64,000 nucleotides of DNA from the NCBI GenBank assembly GCA_903937385.1, contig CAIZZF010000026.1, positions 1 through 64,000 of the forward strand. Direction: 5' to 3'. The notes beneath the pieces are model-generated. The model saw only the letters and a list, made by a program, of their open reading frames with translations. It was not told where the DNA came from and did no database searches. A program made the position numbers and the translations under genes. This stretch comes from an uncultured Holophagaceae bacterium (GTDB lineage: Bacteria > Acidobacteriota > Holophagae > Holophagales > Holophagaceae). Below are positions 1 through 36,590 of the stretch, one piece after another; position 1 is the first letter of the stretch, and each line of letters starts with the position of its first letter.

Positions 1-134
1 GGGCCCGAGACCAGGCTGAAATCACGCCTCGAGGCAGGCCGGCTGCGGTCGGGCTACGCCCTCCCTACGCCGGCCTGCCTCGCACCTAGGGGGTCAGGAG
101 TTTTGTCGCTAAGGGGGGTCAATAGTTTTGTCGG
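1..134. mobile_element. Terminal part of an insertion sequence (rest lies left of the window)
   Basis: Two near-identical short direct repeats lie in tandem at 89-108 and 114-133; both read ggggtca..agttttgtcg, with only two differences in the shared core. This arrangement is typical of the multiple terminal repeats of some IS families such as IS21. A perfect 13-bp inverted repeat (31-43 with 69-81) sits just inside and may end the transposase transcript. No transposase is visible, so the family is inferred only from the repeat architecture. Confidence 0.45.
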
Positions 135-462
135 TTGACACTCCTCCCTGTGCCAATCCGATAGCGTCCACCTGGGTCGAACCCAAATCAATCGCAACCC
201 TGTTACTGGCTGGCGTGCCCGTCGCACCCTGATCCAGGTTTCGCTGACCCTTTTGCAATTCCTCGACCCGGGACTTGAGCATTTGGATCCTGGCAGAGAG
301 TAACTGGATCCTGGTCCTCCCTGCAGCCGTGTTCGCGGTCGCGCAGTTCAAACAGGCTGCAAGCTGGCTTTCCACCTGGGCCAACTGGTCCTGCACCACG
401 CCTGACGAGCCCCTAGCTAAGGACTGACCGGCGTACCGAATAGGACCGATCCTCTGGATCAT
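109..462 (-). pseudogene. Truncated hypothetical gene fused to the IS end
   Basis: A 117-residue frame opens at an ATG preceded by GAGG at a plausible distance. The middle part (about residues 25-75) is rich in Gln, Leu, Glu and Arg and could form a coiled coil; a CxxC-less pair of Cys lies near residues 37-40. The last residues (VSTDKTIDPP) are encoded by the terminal repeat of the IS. The native C-terminus has therefore probably been replaced and the gene is a remnant. No family is recognised. The 226 bp to the next gene on the right hold no convincing coding frame. Confidence 0.35.
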
Positions 463-688: not shown

Positions 689-940
689 CTAGGCCTGCTT
701 TCGGATGGCTTCCTGGACCTGGGCCAGCAGCTTCTCGGCGGATTCCGGTGCCTGGGTCGGCGCTGCCAGGAGCATTTTCCCAAGGCCGGACAGGGCATGC
801 ATGCCGCGCAGGAAACCCGAGCAGGCCCGGCAATACCGGAGGTGGACCCAGATGCCAATTCGCTTTGAGACGGGAAGTGCCCCTTCGGTGTATTCGGTGA
901 GGTCCATCTGGACGTCGTGGCAGGAAGGCAGGAATTTCAT
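689..940 (-). CDS. Anti-sigma factor with zinc-finger (zf-HC2-like) domain
   Basis: This short cytoplasmic protein (83 aa) carries an H-x3-C-x2-C signature (HLRYCRAC, about residues 34-41) preceded by an upstream Cys-His pair near residue 7. That is the layout of the ZAS/zf-HC2 anti-sigma domain, in which the zinc site binds ECF sigma factors and can sense redox or metals. There is no transmembrane segment after the finger, so it is a soluble type. The start is chosen at the ATG with GGGAGG just upstream. It overlaps the sigma gene by four bases (ATGA), indicating translational coupling and a cognate pair. It closes the metallophore operon, which suggests that it senses the same stress the operon answers. 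Confidence 0.75.
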   Translation of the reverse strand: MKFLPSCHDVQMDLTEYTEGALPVSKRIGIWVHLRYCRACSGFLRGMHALSGLGKMLLAAPTQAPESAEKLLAQVQEAIRKQA

Positions 941-1554
941 GATCGACCTCCCGTGACATAAGTTTTTAGGCGAGCCTGGATCAGGAGCCTGGCTCGGTGT
1001 AGCCGCTGCCGGACCGTGCCGGCGGCGAGTTGGAGATGCACCGCAATGTCTTCCGTCTCCCAGTCCTCCAGGTCTTTCAGGATGAACACGATTCGTTGAG
1101 TGTCCGGTAACTCGTCCAGGGCTCGGGTGAGACATTCCCTCATCTCCTGGCCCTCGACGAGCACGTGGGCCTGGGCAGCCTCCTGCCATTCGGGCCGATG
1201 GTCGGGCTCCAGATGGTGTCCCCGGGCATCGAAGGGTCCCAGCTCCAGAGACTCGGAACGCTCCATGTCCTGGATCCTCACTCGGCTACGACGCACCATC
1301 AGTGCTGCATTCAGGCAGACCTTGTAGCCCCAACTGCTGAAGCGGCTGCGACCCTCGAACCTGGGCAGATCGCGGTGGATGCTGATGAGGGCATCCTGCA
1401 GAGCATCCTGCGTATCGGCGGTGTTGCCCAGGATGCGCTGGATGCCATTGTGGAATAGGGCAAGGTGGGGCGTGACGAGTGCGCCGAAAGCGTCAGAGTC
1501 GCCGCTTGCGGCTCTCTGGATCAGTTCAGATTCGGTGAGTGCGAGTTCCGGCAT
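937..1554 (-). CDS. ECF-type RNA polymerase sigma factor
   Basis: The protein is 205 aa, the usual ECF size. Region 2 is visible around residues 15-80 (ADTQDALQDALISIHRDL, then RFEGRSRFSSWGYKVCLNAAL), which matches the -10 recognition and core-binding helices. Region 4 with its helix-turn-helix follows near residues 140-195 (LDELPDTQRIVFILKDLE, then IAVHLQLAAGTVRQRLHRAR). The start at 1554 gives the standard short lead before region 2; in-frame starts upstream (e.g. 1614) are possible because no strong Shine-Dalgarno precedes 1554. It lies 168 bp downstream of the maturase partner gene and overlaps the anti-sigma gene. It probably drives the operon itself, as in other MNIO-linked sigma circuits (inference). 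Confidence 0.82.
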   Translation of the reverse strand: MPELALTESELIQRAASGDSDAFGALVTPHLALFHNGIQRILGNTADTQDALQDALISIHRDLPRFEGRSRFSSWGYKVCLNAALMVRRSRVRIQDMERSESLELGPFDARGHHLEPDHRPEWQEAAQAHVLVEGQEMRECLTRALDELPDTQRIVFILKDLEDWETEDIAVHLQLAAGTVRQRLHRARLLIQARLKTYVTGGRS

Positions 1555-1722
1555 ACAACTGCCAGTGTCCGTGGGGATCGAAGAGGGAGCAAGCGTTACT
1601 TCCCCCAACCGCATCCCCCAAGGCCATGTGACAGACCCCAGAAACCAACTCGGGATATCGATGCACCGGGTTGACCAGGCGAAAGGTCCCCAGACAGGGA
1701 TGAGGACCTTGGTGTGCATGGG

Positions 1723-2505
1723 TCAGATAGGAGCTTGGAACCCGGCGATGGCCCCGACACGGTGAAGGTCCCGTAGCAGGTGCATCAGGGGACCCAGATC
1801 GGTAAGGCCCAGGGCCCGGGCTGATTCGGCCAGCGTCTGGGTGCCCGCCATGACCAGGAAGGCCGCCGTTGCCTGGGTCAGCTCCATCAGCCCCGGCTCT
1901 CCTTCCCGGCTTCTGTACGCGAGGAGGTAGGTCGGAGTAGCGACTGGGATGGGTGAAGCTTCGCTGGCCTTGTGCACGGCGTGCCGGTAGGCAACCACCT
2001 GAGTGGCTACCTCCAGGAGGATGCGATCCTCGAGTTCGGGATCGGCATGGATCTCCTCGGCAGTTGTCGTGTCTGGGAAATGGGCCACCAGGACCTCCAG
2101 AAGTTCGGCGTGGGCCAGTTCAAGTAGGAAGGGCCATCGGTCCTGGCCCCATTGTGTGGTTGCCAACCATCCCAGGAAGGCTGGTGCAATATCCCGGTAG
2201 TGGGAACTCTTAACTCTTCGAGCGTCGAGAAAGGCCTGGACGCATCCATCCCAGGCGTCTGCTTCCTCAAGAAGCGCCCTCAGGATAGGGAACGTGTCTT
2301 CCAATGGCTCGATCAGGCTCATCCGGGCCAGTTCGCGGTAGGTCATCAGGGCCGGCACCTGATCCCTGAAGGACTGCACATCGGCCTCAGCCAGCCCCTG
2401 CATCTGGGCCGGGAAACCAGGATCCGCCTCGAGTAAATTCTCGTCCCCGTCCAGAATCAGGGAAGCCATGGCCCGCTGGAGCCTAAGGGTTCGAGACTCA
2501 GACAT
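1723..2505 (-). CDS. bufC: DUF2063-family RiPP maturation partner (BufC/HvfC-like)
   Basis: A 260-residue protein following the MNIO maturase with an 8-base overlap. The N-terminal part (MSESRTLRLQRAMASLILDG) and the helical first half fit the DUF2063 putative DNA-binding/partner family, which nearly always accompanies DUF692 proteins and is thought to recognise the precursor leader and pass it to the oxygenase. The second half (about residues 160-260) fits the family's second, winged-helix-like module. The start at 2505 was chosen over in-frame upstream codons because it aligns with the family N-terminus and overlaps the bufB stop. The family call rests on context and length as much as on motif, since the sequence is divergent. 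Confidence 0.7.
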   Translation of the reverse strand: MSESRTLRLQRAMASLILDGDENLLEADPGFPAQMQGLAEADVQSFRDQVPALMTYRELARMSLIEPLEDTFPILRALLEEADAWDGCVQAFLDARRVKSSHYRDIAPAFLGWLATTQWGQDRWPFLLELAHAELLEVLVAHFPDTTTAEEIHADPELEDRILLEVATQVVAYRHAVHKASEASPIPVATPTYLLAYRSREGEPGLMELTQATAAFLVMAGTQTLAESARALGLTDLGPLMHLLRDLHRVGAIAGFQAPI

Positions 2506-3349
2506 GGCGGACCTCGCTTGGAAGCAGGACCGCGTCGTAGGCAAGTTGCAGGCGCGATCGTTCCGCCAGCAGCAGATTGAGATCTGGAATGTGATTGTCC
2601 CGTTCCAGGAGGACAGGAACGTGCCGACCAAGGCGTGCCAGAGTCCACTGCATCAACTCGATAACGGGTTCGATCACGTCGGCTCCGTGAGTATCGACGG
2701 TCAGGTTACCGAAGCGCTTGTGGCCTGCGATATGGAACTGCTTGACCCGATCCAAAGGCATCCGGGAGAGCCACTCTTTTGGGTCAAACCCGAAGTTCAC
2801 GGAGTTGACGTAGACATTATTCACATCCAACAGCCAACCCACATCCGCTCCCTCGATCACTTCCGTAATGAAGTCGGCCTCCGCCATTTCAGGGACACCC
2901 AGTTCGGCATAGTAGGTGATGTTCTCCAGCAAGAGTGGAACCGGCAAGCGGGCCTGGAGGTCTTTGGCTCGGGCGATGGTATGGCGAACCGCCTCGCGGG
3001 TGAAGGGGATGGGCAACAGTTCGTGCAGGCAGTTGTCGTCCACTGTTGTGAAGCAAAGGTGCTCGGAGTGCCAGGGGGTTCCCGTGCGGATCAGAAATTG
3101 CTCCAGACCGCGAAGGTATTCCTGGTCCCAGGTGTCGAAGCCTCCCACGGACATGGCCAATCCGTGGGTGAGCACCGGGTCCCGATCGAGGATGGACCAG
3201 GCCAGCCGATTGAACCGGCCCCCATCTCCGACGACATTCTCAGGACAGGTCTCCCAGAAGGGGACGCCATGGCCTTCCAGCCCGGCAACCTGCTCAAGGT
3301 GGGGACGTCGAAGTCCCAATCCCACCCCCGTAAACCTGCCCTGAGTCAT
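2498..3349 (-). CDS. bufB: DUF692 multinuclear non-heme iron oxidase (MNIO) RiPP maturase, BufB/HvfB-like
   Basis: This cytoplasmic TIM-barrel oxygenase (283 aa) modifies Cys residues of RiPP precursors using a two- or three-iron centre. Family metal ligands are visible in order: HSEH at residues 94-97, EN at 142-143 (LLLENITYY), D175 with N177/N178 (GWLLDVNNVYVN), H206 and H210 (FHIAGH), and D219/H221 (DTHG). Length and motif order are those of complete family members. It starts 18 bp after the precursor gene and overlaps its partner gene, so precursor, oxygenase and partner form one unit. In characterised relatives (methanobactin MbnB, bufferin BufB, HvfB) the products bind copper. The actual modification here is unknown. 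Confidence 0.9.
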   Translation of the reverse strand: MTQGRFTGVGLGLRRPHLEQVAGLEGHGVPFWETCPENVVGDGGRFNRLAWSILDRDPVLTHGLAMSVGGFDTWDQEYLRGLEQFLIRTGTPWHSEHLCFTTVDDNCLHELLPIPFTREAVRHTIARAKDLQARLPVPLLLENITYYAELGVPEMAEADFITEVIEGADVGWLLDVNNVYVNSVNFGFDPKEWLSRMPLDRVKQFHIAGHKRFGNLTVDTHGADVIEPVIELMQWTLARLGRHVPVLLERDNHIPDLNLLLAERSRLQLAYDAVLLPSEVRHV

Positions 3350-3367
3350 GTCGTTTCCCCTGGAAAA

Positions 3368-3733
3368 CTACTTCTTGTCCGCGCCGCAGGAACCTTCCTT
3401 CTTGTCCTTGCCGCAGGAGCCATCCTTCTTATCCTTGCCGCAGGAACCGTCCTTCTTGGCCTTGCTGCTGGCCCCTTCTTTCTTGTGCTTCTTGACGTCC
3501 TTACTGCCACAGGTGCCCTTGCCGCAGCCACCGTCCTTGGCCTTGTCTTCCTTGGCCTTGGCGGGGGCCTTGGCTTCGTCCTTGCCTTCCTTGGCTCCGC
3601 AATCACCGGCCTGGGTGAAGGCGGCCTCGGCGCCGAAAGCCTGGACAGGCGTGGCACCGACGGTGGTCGAACCACCGGCCATCAGGGACCCGGCGGCAAA
3701 GAGAGTGGCAACACCGATCATCTTCGTGAACAT
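3368..3733 (-). CDS. bufA: Secreted Cys-Gly-rich RiPP precursor, BufA/HvfA-like metallophore
   Basis: A 121-residue peptide with an N-terminal signal sequence (MFTKMIGVATLFAAGSLMAG, cleavage probably near residue 30). A Lys/Ala/Glu/Asp-rich low-complexity core holds six Cys, each followed by Gly (C45, C70, C75, C98, C107, C116). The last three sit in an exact 9-residue period (DGSCGKDKK, DGSCGKDKK, EGSCGADKK). Known HvfA/bufferin peptides use EGKCG-type motifs, whose Cys become oxazolone or thiooxazole groups; the DGSCG form here is a variant. The start has GGAGG seven bases upstream and is the first gene of the operon. Function as an exported copper-binding or buffering peptide is inferred from the family and the neighbouring MNIO. 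Confidence 0.8.
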   Translation of the reverse strand: MFTKMIGVATLFAAGSLMAGGSTTVGATPVQAFGAEAAFTQAGDCGAKEGKDEAKAPAKAKEDKAKDGGCGKGTCGSKDVKKHKKEGASSKAKKDGSCGKDKKDGSCGKDKKEGSCGADKK

Positions 3734-4046
3734 GAATCCTCCGTGCGGTCAGAGCCGCATCAGGGGTCGCACTGCGACCCCAGTGATGCAGCAGACGAGG
3801 CCCTCTCGGACGATCCGATCAGTGCCAAAGTGCTGCTGTTAACAATTCGGTGCAGCCTCGGTGGCCATTGTTACATTTTTTTATTTTTATGAACCTGGCG
3901 CCTGGTAGCTGCGGGGTCACCCGGCGTCCCTGCTGTGCTCATGGGGCAGAGACCGATGGGGGGTCGAGGAACCCGAGTCCAGGCCTCCCTGCCTATATTT
4001 AGAGCCTTGATAGCGGCAGGCAACTGGAACCCGGAAGTAGATGGGC
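3734..4046. promoter_or_regulatory. Control region of the metallophore operon with a perfect 19-bp palindrome
   Basis: No gene is seen here. A perfect inverted repeat with 9-base arms and one central base occupies 3763-3781 (ggggtcgca / tgcgacccc), some 30 bp upstream of the bufA start. It could be an operator or an mRNA hairpin in the 5' leader. Further upstream on the minus strand an A/T tract (about 3875-3890) precedes a TGTAAC element that resembles an ECF -35 box. The matching -10 was not found at a standard spacing, so the promoter position is uncertain. Confidence 0.4.
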
Positions 4047-4388
4047 CTAATGCGAAGAGAAATGGTCGAATGAGCCAGAATGCTCATCCAACCATAGTTG
4101 TGCCCACCGCTGCTGGACGACATAGCCGTCCAGATAATCCTTCTCCCCATAAGTGAGCAGGACTTCATATTTCGGATTGGCAGTCTTCTTTCCATAGTGA
4201 AGCATCGCCATGAGCCGACGGTATCGGATCTCCTCATCCTCGCTCAGCGGAGGTACAGCCATGGCGAATAGACGACTTTCCAAATCGTCGGGCTGCTGCA
4301 CGGGACCGCGCAGTCGTGCTTCGACCTCAGCCTGAAGCAGCGATTCCCTTAACTTCCTTTGCCTCATAAATTGAAACGGTAACCTCAT
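4047..4388 (-). CDS. Hypothetical protein, 113 aa
   Basis: No family is recognised. The start at 4388 has AGGAG six bases upstream, which favours it over the longer in-frame opening at 4490. The protein is soluble and highly charged, with a basic helical N-terminus (MRLPFQFMRQRKLRESL) and an aromatic, acidic C-terminal part (about residues 75-113: Tyr-, Trp- and His-containing). There are no Cys clusters and no membrane segment. It lies 139 bp downstream of the GIY-YIG-like gene in the same direction, so the two may be co-expressed. It is probably accessory cargo of the island. Confidence 0.5.
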   Translation of the reverse strand: MRLPFQFMRQRKLRESLLQAEVEARLRGPVQQPDDLESRLFAMAVPPLSEDEEIRYRRLMAMLHYGKKTANPKYEVLLTYGEKDYLDGYVVQQRWAQLWLDEHSGSFDHFSSH

Positions 4389-6531: not shown

Positions 6532-7416
6532 CTATTCAAGCCCACCGTTCTCGCCGCCAAACGTGAAGTAAAGGGCACTCTCGGCCATGGCGCCCCAGGC
6601 CCATTTATTCCACCATTCCCTTGGAATCCGCATCGACCGACCATCACACTTCGAACAGAGCATTTCTCCGTGGCAGCCGTGGAAGGAAACCTCCCTGAGT
6701 CCAGGAATCCAATCCTTCGGGGCAGCCACGAGGAGGGGGATCGTGAACCCTTCCTCGGTGCGATACGGGCCAGGGTCGATGCCCAGCGTAATGATCCAGG
6801 CACTCGCATCAACCGGAAGGAAGGGCCCGGCCAGCGACCAGTAATTGTCCTTTCGCAGGCTAGAAGGCAGCCTGCTTCGCCTAAGGCCGCGCTTCGTTAC
6901 CTCTTCCCAGTTAGCCAGAACGAATTCCCATGGAGCCAAGTGTGGCGGCAGGGAACTAATTGGTGGGACAAAGACAATCGTCTCGCCAGCCACCCCCGTT
7001 TTTTGGGGCATACCCCTATGCCTCCGCTGGTCCCAGTCGGAAGAGAGGGCCTTGATCTGCTCCTGGGTGGTGGCCAAGAAGATCTCAGGCAGGGTGTCCA
7101 CGAGGTCTCTCGAAACTCTGGCTGAGGTCTGGTTTGAAGTTGAGGCCTGAGCAATTGCCTCGACTTCATGATTACTCTTTTCTGCTCCCGGCATCGCGAT
7201 CGAGTCGGGATTTGCTCCGGGATCCACGGATTCCAAAGGCTCTTGGGTCCGCTCGGATTCCCTAGCCTCTTCCGGGTCGCCTTCCGGGCTTCCGTCCAGG
7301 TCGAGGTCCTCCACCGGGGAACGGGATTCCTCGGTCCTTTGGCCCGATGGCACGGATGGATCCTTCGCGGGCTCGACGTTGCTCCTCGCGCTGGTATAGG
7401 GAACCTTGGCTTTCAT
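6532..7416 (-). CDS. Hypothetical protein of the mobilization cluster, 294 aa
   Basis: The start ATG has a strong GGAGG eight bases upstream. The first third (residues 1-90) is low-complexity and rich in Glu, Asp, Pro and Ser, probably disordered. The C-terminal part (about 170-294) looks folded and holds a HGCHGEMLCSKC segment that could bind zinc, followed by Trp-rich residues (REWWNKWAWGAM). No family is recognised. It overlaps the 3' end of the relaxase gene by 155 bp in another frame, an unusually long overlap that supports co-transcription. A role in DNA transfer processing is plausible only by position. Confidence 0.55.
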   Translation of the reverse strand: MKAKVPYTSARSNVEPAKDPSVPSGQRTEESRSPVEDLDLDGSPEGDPEEARESERTQEPLESVDPGANPDSIAMPGAEKSNHEVEAIAQASTSNQTSARVSRDLVDTLPEIFLATTQEQIKALSSDWDQRRHRGMPQKTGVAGETIVFVPPISSLPPHLAPWEFVLANWEEVTKRGLRRSRLPSSLRKDNYWSLAGPFLPVDASAWIITLGIDPGPYRTEEGFTIPLLVAAPKDWIPGLREVSFHGCHGEMLCSKCDGRSMRIPREWWNKWAWGAMAESALYFTFGGENGGLE

Positions 7417-8395
7417 ACGCTTCCTCCAGAAGGGCTAGCAAGTTGACGGATGGAACGACCTTTGGCGACTTCGGTCGCATTGGAATGGACGGCATCTCAC
7501 GAGGCCGACTGAATGAAAGGGCAGCGTCAAAAGATTTACTTCCTGGTGCCTTCCGCTCGGCAGCAACGGCGGAGTCATGGTCCTGGATAGACCTGATATG
7601 CGGTTTCAGTTCCTTCCACTGGTATTTCTCGCCGAGGGTGCAGGCCTTCCACTTTTCACCCTCGATGCAATAGGAGACTCCCACCGTGTCTCCCTTTTTG
7701 TTCAGGAGGACGTCGATTCCATCCGCTGCCAGCCGTTCAGAGAAGTCCGAATAGAACAGGGGTGAGCCCTCAACTGGCCACAGTGCGTCCAATCTCGCCC
7801 TCGCGAGTTCCTTCTTGGTGGGCAACCTCCGATCCTCCATCTCCTTCTCAGATCGCGTTTTCCTAGGTCCCTTCCCTGCCCTCCCTGGGCCAACGGGTAT
7901 TACCTCAGGCACACTGCTCGTGAGTTCGCGGAGGCCATATTTTTTCTCAACCCTTCGGCAAACAGCCTGTGAAATGGCGCAGTCACGGAATACGTCGCGG
8001 AGCAGACTGCCATCGTTTCCGACCCGACAAAAAACGGGATGAACATGGTCGTGACCTTGATCCAGATGACGGATGGTCAGGAATGAATGCTTATCCCTTT
8101 CGAGACCATGAGCACTGATGAATTCATCATTGATGTCCTTCCATTTCCCATCTACAGACTCACTATTGCCGATCGCGAGGCTCCAGTGACGAAATGGGGA
8201 GACGACATCCGGTCGAAGGTCGCAATTGACTGACAGCAATTCTGCGAGGTATTTCACGCAATCTGGGGTATCGATCGTCGGTGGTAACAGAGCCAGGATG
8301 TCCGGAGAGGCATCGACAATCTCGGCGTTCCGGCCCACCAGAAGGTAGAACAGCGCTTTCTCCAGGCTCCGGACCTTAATTTTTTTGCTGATCAT
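7262..8395 (-). CDS. Relaxase / mobilization nuclease (MobA/VirD2-like, PF03432 type)
   Basis: A 377-residue protein that would nick oriT and pilot the single strand during conjugal mobilization. The relaxase metal-binding motif is visible at residues 110-125: H110, D112, H115, H117, H119 in HLDQGHDHVHPVFCRV. It is preceded by the family's conserved HWSLAIGNSES segment near residue 70. The catalytic Tyr is not certain; Y17 in the N-terminus is the likely candidate. The C-terminal third is Arg/Pro/Gly-rich and probably disordered. The start has GGGAG upstream and overlaps the mobC-like gene by 20 bp. No type IV secretion genes are seen, so it probably relies on a helper element. Confidence 0.8.
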   Translation of the reverse strand: MISKKIKVRSLEKALFYLLVGRNAEIVDASPDILALLPPTIDTPDCVKYLAELLSVNCDLRPDVVSPFRHWSLAIGNSESVDGKWKDINDEFISAHGLERDKHSFLTIRHLDQGHDHVHPVFCRVGNDGSLLRDVFRDCAISQAVCRRVEKKYGLRELTSSVPEVIPVGPGRAGKGPRKTRSEKEMEDRRLPTKKELARARLDALWPVEGSPLFYSDFSERLAADGIDVLLNKKGDTVGVSYCIEGEKWKACTLGEKYQWKELKPHIRSIQDHDSAVAAERKAPGSKSFDAALSFSRPREMPSIPMRPKSPKVVPSVNLLALLEEAYESQGSLYQREEQRRAREGSIRAIGPKDRGIPFPGGGPRPGRKPGRRPGRG

Positions 8396-34641: not shown

Positions 34642-36324
34642 TCAGTAGCGCCCTGCCGCACGCTCTTTTGCCCAGTGGCCCCGGGGCATTACCCTTAGGC
34701 CTCGCACCTTGCAGTGCTTTTCCAAAGTCTTCGGTTTCATACCCAGTTCCACCGCCACGACGCTGACTGGGCGCTCAAGAACCATCCTCTGAAGTTCCTC
34801 GTCAGATGGGTAGTCAGCCAGGGTCTTCCGGGGCTTTGGAATCTTGGGCACAGGTGGAGCCTTCTCCTTGGCCTTCCGAACCCCTCGGGGGGGCCAGGAG
34901 CCCACCTGGATCACCACCTGAATTGGTTCCGGAGCCGCCACTTTTGCTCGGGCCCCAGCCGTATAAAACTCGGGGTCGATGGCCACCCCAAGATCCGTAG
35001 CGAAGTCTATTTCCGTGCGGGTGTTCACCTCGGCCACTTTCGCCTTCACTGGGCTGCTGTAGCGGTCCAGGACTTCTGTGGTCTTGATTCCGACGACAGC
35101 GCCGATCATCGGATTCTCTTCGGTTTCAGCCAGCTTCGCGGTCTTGCTGTGCCGCAGGTCGTGAGGGCGGATCGGAGGCTTCTCGATGGTGTTGCCGTAT
35201 CGATCAGTTTCGGGATAATCGGCGTACACACCGGCTCGCTCCCGAACCTTGGTCCAGGTTGCGTTCAGAGTGCTCAGTCCCATCGGGCGCATGGGATCCC
35301 GGCCCGGGAACACATAGGGAGAGTCCAGGATGCGGGGTATGGACTTCAAAATGCTGTATGCCAAAGGTCCAATAGGCAAGTACTGAGGATTGAGGTGTGT
35401 TGCCGTCTTGCTCACCAGCTTTAAATATTTACGTTCGAGATCGACCTCGCGCCACTCAAGCGTAGTGAGCGAATCCCGCCGGAGGCTGGTAGCCAGGGAA
35501 AGCTGTACGGCCCTCAAATAGATCACGTTTGCGGAGCCGTCCAAGATCATCTCGTTCATGGTCTCACCCACCTTGCGGCGAGCCGATTCATCGAGCGGGC
35601 GGTGGATCTTGTGGTCGCCATTCGCCTTCACGTCTCGCGTCGGATTGATGGAAACCCACTTCATCTCCGTGGCATACCTGAAGAACGATTTCAAGGCTCT
35701 GAAAGCTCCATCCGCAGTTGTCTCAGCGGGTCGAGGTTTCCGCTTGCTCTCCTTGTCGACGGCGCAAATGCCCTTGGTAGAGATGTCCGTATGCCACGTG
35801 TCGATCGCCGCATTGTCCATCTGCTTGAGCTTCTTACCGATGAACCGTGGCTTGATGTAGAGATCCAACTTCTGCCGGTAGCTGCGCTGAGTTCCAGGTT
35901 TCAGGTCTGAGACATAGTCTTCCATCCACATCTCAGCGAGTTCTTCGAAAGGGAGCTTCTGGGCCCTTTCCTTACTTAAGGCCTGCCTGGCGTTCGGATC
36001 TTGTCTGGCCATCCGGCGAAGGTCGTCCGCCTGGTCGCGAGCTTCCTTCAGTGACATATCTGCCACCTTGCCAAAGGTCTCCCATAGCTGCCTGGAGCCA
36101 GTCTTGCTCTGGAGGCGGACCTGCCAGGAATGATGCCCAGAAGGCTCAAGGCGAACGCTCAGGCCGATGGAGCGTATGTCCGTCAGACGGATCCGTTCGT
36201 CGGCGGGGCCGAGGTTATTCAGGAAGCCTTGCGTGAGGTGGACGTATCGAGAACCCCGCTCTACACCTTCAGGATCGATTGGGCGAAGCGCCTTCTTGGT
36301 GGTAGTCGACTTCAGTGATGGCAT
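34642..36324 (-). CDS. int: Tyrosine-type site-specific integrase with C-terminal HTH extension
   Basis: 560 aa from the ATG at 36324 (GGAGGT upstream). The N-terminal arm-binding and SAM-like core-binding domain is seen to about residue 260 (e.g. FEELAEMWMEDYV). Catalytic features are R in SLRRDSLTTLEW (about 292), HDLRH (about 390) and the nucleophile Tyr in LDRYSS (about 420). The usual second His (LGH box) is not evident; the aligned segment reads AVVGIKTTEV. After about residue 480 an extra tail holds a helix-turn-helix-like segment (PVSVVAVELGMKPKTLEKHC). It lies 209 bp from the tRNA-Ser fragment and points into the island, as expected for the element's own integrase. Confidence 0.85.
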   Translation of the reverse strand: MPSLKSTTTKKALRPIDPEGVERGSRYVHLTQGFLNNLGPADERIRLTDIRSIGLSVRLEPSGHHSWQVRLQSKTGSRQLWETFGKVADMSLKEARDQADDLRRMARQDPNARQALSKERAQKLPFEELAEMWMEDYVSDLKPGTQRSYRQKLDLYIKPRFIGKKLKQMDNAAIDTWHTDISTKGICAVDKESKRKPRPAETTADGAFRALKSFFRYATEMKWVSINPTRDVKANGDHKIHRPLDESARRKVGETMNEMILDGSANVIYLRAVQLSLATSLRRDSLTTLEWREVDLERKYLKLVSKTATHLNPQYLPIGPLAYSILKSIPRILDSPYVFPGRDPMRPMGLSTLNATWTKVRERAGVYADYPETDRYGNTIEKPPIRPHDLRHSKTAKLAETEENPMIGAVVGIKTTEVLDRYSSPVKAKVAEVNTRTEIDFATDLGVAIDPEFYTAGARAKVAAPEPIQVVIQVGSWPPRGVRKAKEKAPPVPKIPKPRKTLADYPSDEELQRMVLERPVSVVAVELGMKPKTLEKHCKVRGLRVMPRGHWAKERAAGRY

Positions 36325-36532
36325 GTTCGACCTCCAGGATATGATTCGAACCTTGACCACATTTTAGGGCATTTTTGGGTCTCACTGGGGTCTCAATTGG
36401 GTGCTTTCAATCGAATTCAACCGAATGCTTCAGCAGTTCATCATACTGTTAAAATTGCTAGTTAACGTCAATTAATTTCGTTAAATCTTCTAATAAACAC
36501 AACTGGAAAGTGTGTGTAGGTCAAAAGCTTAC

Positions 36533-36561
36533 CGAGGGTTCGAATCCCTCACTCTCCGCCA
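36533..36561 (+). repeat. Attachment site: 3' fragment of a tRNA-Ser gene
   Basis: The 29 bases comprise a T-stem/loop (GAGGG-TTCGAAT-CCCTC), the 3' acceptor strand ACTCTCC, discriminator G and CCA. The matching 5' acceptor strand and the D and anticodon arms are absent upstream, where the sequence is A/T-rich island DNA, so this is not a working tRNA gene. It marks the right end of the element; an intact tRNA-Ser rebuilt by the island should lie left of the window. Confidence 0.75.
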
Positions 36562-36564
36562 ACT

Positions 36565-36590
36565 GAAGCCGCCCCCGGGCGGCTTCTTTT
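36565..36590 (+). terminator. Rho-independent terminator after the tRNA-Ser fragment
   Basis: A perfect stem of ten pairs (36565-36574 with 36577-36586, gaagccgccc / gggcggcttc; the two-base gap means the top pairs open in practice) is followed by TTTT. This is probably the original terminator of the tRNA-Ser gene. Confidence 0.75.

Follow-up and report, generated by a model that had tools for sequence, protein, structure and literature searches.

Operons in which an MNIO gene is accompanied by a sigma factor and a zinc anti-sigma factor are already known, as is the carriage of such operons on plasmids. In Neisseria meningitidis, NMB2140-2145 (NGO1948-1943 in N. gonorrhoeae) is an autoregulated operon that starts with DoxX and continues with MNIO-pathway genes, followed by sigma-E and a ZAS anti-sigma factor (PMC2893595). 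The SigF/NrsF bufferin operons of Caulobacter are likewise ECF-controlled MNIO operons, with a DUF2282 precursor and an NrsF-type anti-sigma factor (PMC8224329, PMC12452194); copper induces them, and mutation of sigF makes the cells sensitive to it (PMC8224329). In the oxazolin and fontiphorin systems (HvfABC and FonABC; captophorins), an MNIO and PME1 act on the repeated Cys-Gly of an exported precursor with the EGKCG motif, 5-thiooxazole peptides bind copper, and in the text consulted no sigma pair is described for those clusters (PMC13097082). We found MNIO genes on 353 plasmid records, 182 of which were typed as mobilizable or conjugative. Plasmid pAURM-2 of Acinetobacter ursingii (NZ_AP018826) has the order precursor-DUF692-DUF2063-sigma-zf-HC2 with a recombinase nearby, and Pseudomonas aeruginosa plasmid pPALO11 (CP075839) combines ECF sigma and zf-HC2 genes with MNIO and DUF2063 genes and EGSCG repeats. 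A Rhodanobacter plasmid (L108) also has a DUF2282 MNIO operon, embedded in a mer mercury-resistance cluster.

We analysed a stretch of 64,000 nucleotides (the window) that opens contig C26 of a 3.68 Mb metagenome assembly (G000) of Geothrix (Acidobacteriota, Holophagaceae), a bacterium of soil and sediment. The window was compared with a set of 60 related genomes, 29 of which contain an MNIO, nearly all of them within Geothrix. We consider it likely that the window carries a self-regulated operon of the captophorin/bufferin type on an integrative mobilizable island.

Gene content of the operon and comparison with described systems

The original prediction placed a precursor, an MNIO, a DUF2063 partner, an ECF sigma factor and an anti-sigma factor in this order on the minus strand (689-3733), and all five reading frames were found intact at these positions:

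3849..3875, minus strand: predicted ECF promoter TGTAACA-N15-GCACC (motif search)
3368..3733, minus strand: RiPP precursor, 121 aa (ORF, sequence)
2498..3349, minus strand: MNIO (DUF692) maturase, 283 aa (PF05114)
1723..2505, minus strand: HvfC/PME1-like partner protein, DUF2063 and NGO1945_C (profile search)
1552..1722, minus strand: gap of 171 bp at the YceI slot of relatives (comparison with related loci)
937..1551, minus strand: ECF sigma factor, 204 aa (Sigma70 profiles)
689..940, minus strand: ZAS-type anti-sigma factor, 83 aa (profile and Cys/His positions)

Chance can be ruled out as the origin of this grouping, because the precursor, MNIO and DUF2063 genes recur together in at least 20 Geothrix loci, 14 of which also have the sigma and anti-sigma genes. 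The DUF692 and DUF2063 assignments were borne out by profile searches: the MNIO matched PF05114 (MbnB_TglH_ChrH) with E=3.4e-83 and 279 bits, and its partner matched PF09836 (E=4.4e-12, 46.5 bits against a cut-off of 27.2) and NGO1945_C (6.3e-9). The MNIO scored 259 bits with the HvfB model NF003818, under its 360-bit cut-off, and 31 bits with the MbnB model, whose cut-off is 325. The MbnB, MbnC and MbnA combination of methanobactin clusters was not found, the partner being of the DUF2063 type. Arg14-Arg15, the His/Asp/Glu metal positions and the catalytic Asp251 of the MNIO are intact, as in solved MNIOs of the 3bww type and in the plasmid homologues; the FonB counterparts of Arg14, Arg15 and Asp251 (Arg15, Arg16 and Asp249) have been probed by mutation (PMC13097082). 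By gene content the operon corresponds to a captophorin cluster, with a PF05114 MNIO, an adjoining DUF2063/PME1 partner and a Cys-rich repeat precursor, and it probably makes a modified metal-binding peptide under its own stress switch.

Since Neisseria has the same gene types, and the Acinetobacter plasmid the same order beside a recombinase, the gene arrangement as such was already known. As in Neisseria, the MNIO-pathway genes are followed on the same strand by the ECF sigma gene and then by a ZAS with an N-terminal Cys and Hx3Cx2C, its Cys/His positions matching those of the Neisseria protein (PMC2893595). The Neisseria proteins are distant, however (the gonococcal MNIO is ∼38% identical to that of the window), and the window operon has no DoxX, a role in which Geothrix has YceI or nothing. 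Plasmid pAURM-2 differs from the window in its AKCGA repeats, its divergent DoxX gene and an MNIO identity of 41%, while in pPALO11, whose EGSCG repeats closely resemble those of Geothrix, the sigma genes lie upstream and DoxX is present. Particular to the Geothrix operon are its Acidobacteriota host, which would extend sigma-controlled metallophore operons to that phylum, and three less expected traits: a [DE]GSCG precursor outside the HvfA models, YceI in the DoxX slot of the native operon, and an apparent history of loss and regain within one genus.

The precursor peptide

The precursor begins with a Sec-type signal peptide and contains six Cys residues, every one in Cys-Gly, within nine-residue repeats of the form [DE]GSCGKDKK. 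A Cys-Gly precursor with a signal peptide was present in every Geothrix operon read. The search with HvfA profiles that had been proposed for this peptide came back empty: the window precursor did not match NF050137/NF050188 even at E 10, and none of the precursors of its Geothrix relatives did so at E 1. No match was obtained with Pfam and curated models either, and the DUF2282 domain of Buf1 bufferin precursors was not detected. The precursor also has Ser, not Lys, before most of its Cys residues, and thus shows neither the Lys-Cys-Gly repeats nor the model match by which the HvfA/oxazolin (EGKCG) subfamily is recognised. Studies of MNIO specificity could use such Ser-Cys-Gly repeats as a naturally occurring substrate variant. 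We looked for covariation between the change from Lys to Ser before Cys and the selectivity site of the MNIO, the Asn that follows the catalytic Asp (Phe250 in FonB). Asn is also found in MNIOs of Holophagaceae and Sulfuricurvum whose precursors have Lys-Cys, and the covariation was for that reason rejected.

The precursor could instead be an exported Cys-rich protein, either unmodified or carrying another MNIO product, that serves in redox or sulfur stress and not in the handling of copper. The failure of the HvfA models, Ser in place of Lys, the YceI gene that accompanies the precursor in relatives, and the methionine sulfoxide reductase in the Neisseria regulon (PMC2893595) all point in this direction. 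Yet the arginines and catalytic Asp of the MNIO are conserved, and the HvfA models do match the EGSCG-repeat homologue from the P. aeruginosa plasmid; we regard this explanation as unlikely.

Sigma factor, anti-sigma factor and predicted promoter

The claim that this MNIO RiPP operon has its own ECF sigma factor and zinc-type anti-sigma factor is supported by family profiles. The sigma factor, which starts at the ATG at 1551 as in its relatives, matched the Sigma70_r2 and r4_2 profiles with E values down to 9e-17. The anti-sigma factor matched NF052368 at 8e-10, below the model's cut-off, and its C7, H33, C37 and C40 are positions common to the zf-HC2 anti-sigma factors of plasmid MNIO operons. 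No membrane segment was evident from its sequence, and no credible relative was found among solved structures. This 83-aa ZAS-type protein stands in the place of the NrsF-type anti-sigma factor of Buf1 bufferin operons.

The strict motif TGTMACA-N15-GCACC had a single match in G000, upstream of the precursor gene. It was also found at the operon in G005, G009, G020 and G030; chance matches of this search numbered about one per few genomes. Of 28 related loci, 24 have the shorter form GTMACA-N15-GCAC upstream of the precursor gene and some 470-600 bp ahead of the MNIO start; 25 matches were found in 613 kb of strand, only one of them outside the 24 loci, and a reversed control gave 0. The spacing and form of this predicted element suit an ECF promoter, and the operon's own sigma factor may read it. 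In eight Geothrix loci that have no adjacent sigma gene, operon and motif are both retained, so that another sigma factor presumably can read the promoter as well. A further ECF sigma factor, ∼50% identical, was found in all nine genomes searched.

In the mechanism that we propose, excess copper, another thiol-reactive metal or oxidation would disturb the zinc anti-sigma factor, a small cytosolic protein, and so release the ECF sigma factor. The sigma factor would start transcription at the promoter ahead of the precursor gene and thereby drive the entire operon, its own gene included. Cys residues in the Cys-Gly repeats would be converted by the MNIO and its DUF2063 partner, with 5-thiooxazoles as the likeliest product, and the modified peptide would be exported via Sec and bind metal outside the cytoplasm. 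We infer the stress signal, the sigma-promoter pairing, the Cys chemistry, the metal and the export route; characterised relatives are the source for the 5-thiooxazole chemistry, the role of copper and Sec export (PMC13097082, PMC12452194, PMC13419390), and Caulobacter for the link between copper and the sigma factor (PMC8224329). It counts against this mechanism that oxidative stimuli left expression of the sigma factor unchanged in Neisseria (PMC2893595), that the precursor is missed by the HvfA models, and that eight loci retain the motif where the adjacent sigma gene is absent.

The native locus and loss of YceI

In most of Geothrix, the operon is a chromosomal resident. In many members of the genus it occupies one fixed site, where uvrA-csrA-fliW-rnd are followed by precursor-MNIO-DUF2063-YceI-sigma-anti-sigma and then by a metallophosphoesterase (MPE) gene and a TolB-like gene. 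The sigma/anti-sigma pair is present in 14 loci. In a further eight close Geothrix loci the pair is absent and the first three genes are present; among these eight, L048, L050 and L051 retain YceI, and L042 has neither the pair nor YceI. In some Geothrix operons at another locus, the DUF2063 gene is followed by an FKBP-like gene (L045-L047, 7608-8171).

The original prediction had remarked on the missing DoxX gene, and indeed none adjoins the operon, the sole DoxX match of the genome lying on another contig. We rejected the idea that this is a peculiarity of the window copy, because Geothrix relatives carry YceI in that slot. YceI proteins are usually periplasmic binders of lipids or quinones, and a literature search for an MNIO linked with YceI found no paper in the collection searched. 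The YceI gene is present in the operons of at least 13 relatives; in the window its slot is occupied by the 171-bp gap, and a search of the window found no remnant. The window copy has lost this gene, which raises the question of whether the loss left a decaying, non-functional module on the island. The other five frames are all intact, as are the promoter and the catalytic residues, and L042 likewise does without YceI, making decay very improbable, even with the gene kept by so many relatives.

Evidence for horizontal movement of the operon

The native site is empty in G000 and in the sister species G003, G023 and G030, with rnd and MPE ∼330 bp apart; in a core gene, DNA identity between G000 and these species is 93%. 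A search for an MNIO in G003, an assembly only 85% complete, and in G023 gave no match. In G030 an operon of six genes is present, but at an unrelated site. A second copy of the operon was found in the distant species G004, which also retains its native operon. It is 93.6% identical to the window copy over 1350 bp (2904-4252), and 99.3% identical over a 446-bp part of the MNIO gene, compared with 81.9% for the core region from MPE to uvrA in the same two genomes. In the MNIO tree, the window copy and the second G004 copy grouped with 100/100 support, and not with G030. Horizontal movement, as originally proposed, is thus well supported, and far more strongly than the window alone allowed, because the native site is empty and a near-identical copy occurs in a distant species despite 82% core identity; transfer is the simplest account of the window copy. 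About 4 kb separate the second G004 copy, which runs into the end of its contig, from a phage-type integrase gene. Between operon copy and integrase (L067, 1545-4171) are two long ORFs similar to each other; the first, of 313 aa, has an exonuclease domain, and the second is 411 aa long.

A probable integrative mobilizable island

The following features of the window bear on the claim that the operon is carried by a mobilizable element:

1..135, strand not given: end of the contig, with an inverted repeat and a direct repeat of 20 bp (sequence)
7262..8395, minus strand: MobA/VirD2-type relaxase (PF03432, 2.5e-15)
34642..36360, minus strand: tyrosine integrase
36503..36566, plus strand: attR, an exact 64-bp copy of the tRNA-Ser(GGA) 3' end, adjoining core chromosome (sequence match)

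The relaxase, the integrase immediately to the left of the att fragment, and the tRNA-Ser att fragment itself support the island, and together form the integrase, relaxase and tRNA att duplication of an integrative mobilizable element. The window to the right of 38104 is syntenic with the sister genomes. Between the contig end and the att fragment, a match to the sister chromosome was looked for and not found, and G+C is 0.55-0.61 in the island against 0.69 in the core. The claim stands less firmly at the left end, which is missing from the assembly, as the window opens at the contig end. The intact tRNA-Ser(GGA) gene is present in G023 and G003, but searches with the sister-genome flank and with tRNA-Ser recovered neither it nor the left flank in the G000 assembly, and for this reason we infer that the operon lies inside the element. 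The repeats at 1..135 may represent the end of an insertion sequence. Downstream of the anti-sigma gene, the window also has a 117-aa FlxA-like ORF (109-462), which was not found in the related operon loci.

The missing left end leaves room for an ordinary chromosomal resident near an island, the contig break mimicking mobility, and the fixed chromosomal place of the operon in many Geothrix would agree with this. We consider it improbable, given that the fixed place is empty in G000 and three sister species, that the sequence leftwards of the att fragment does not match the sister chromosome, and that a near-identical copy is found close to an integrase in a distant species. Under our preferred reading of an island-borne operon, the locus would be a clear case within one genus of loss followed by horizontal regain. 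There is perhaps an even chance that the fuller history also holds, in which a distinct captophorin subfamily with [DE]GSCGKDKK repeats and YceI in the DoxX slot formed a portable sigma cassette that was lost from its ancestral site in one clade, regained on an island as five genes, and now occurs twice in a recipient that kept its native copy. A cassette with its own sigma factor and promoter would make it possible to test whether self-regulation renders stress modules portable.

The same island contains a defence-like block (9840-33759) with a DrmD-like SNF2 helicase, a DrmMI-like methylase, a DruE-like helicase of 1780 aa, an AIPR/AbiU-like protein, the Gabija pair GajA (5e-199) and GajB (1e-230), an SbcD-like nuclease and an SMC-like ATPase. 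In G004, this tRNA-Ser 3' sequence occurs twice, at a distance of 52 kb (contig C8, 17442-69594), which suggests another island at the same tRNA gene in that species.
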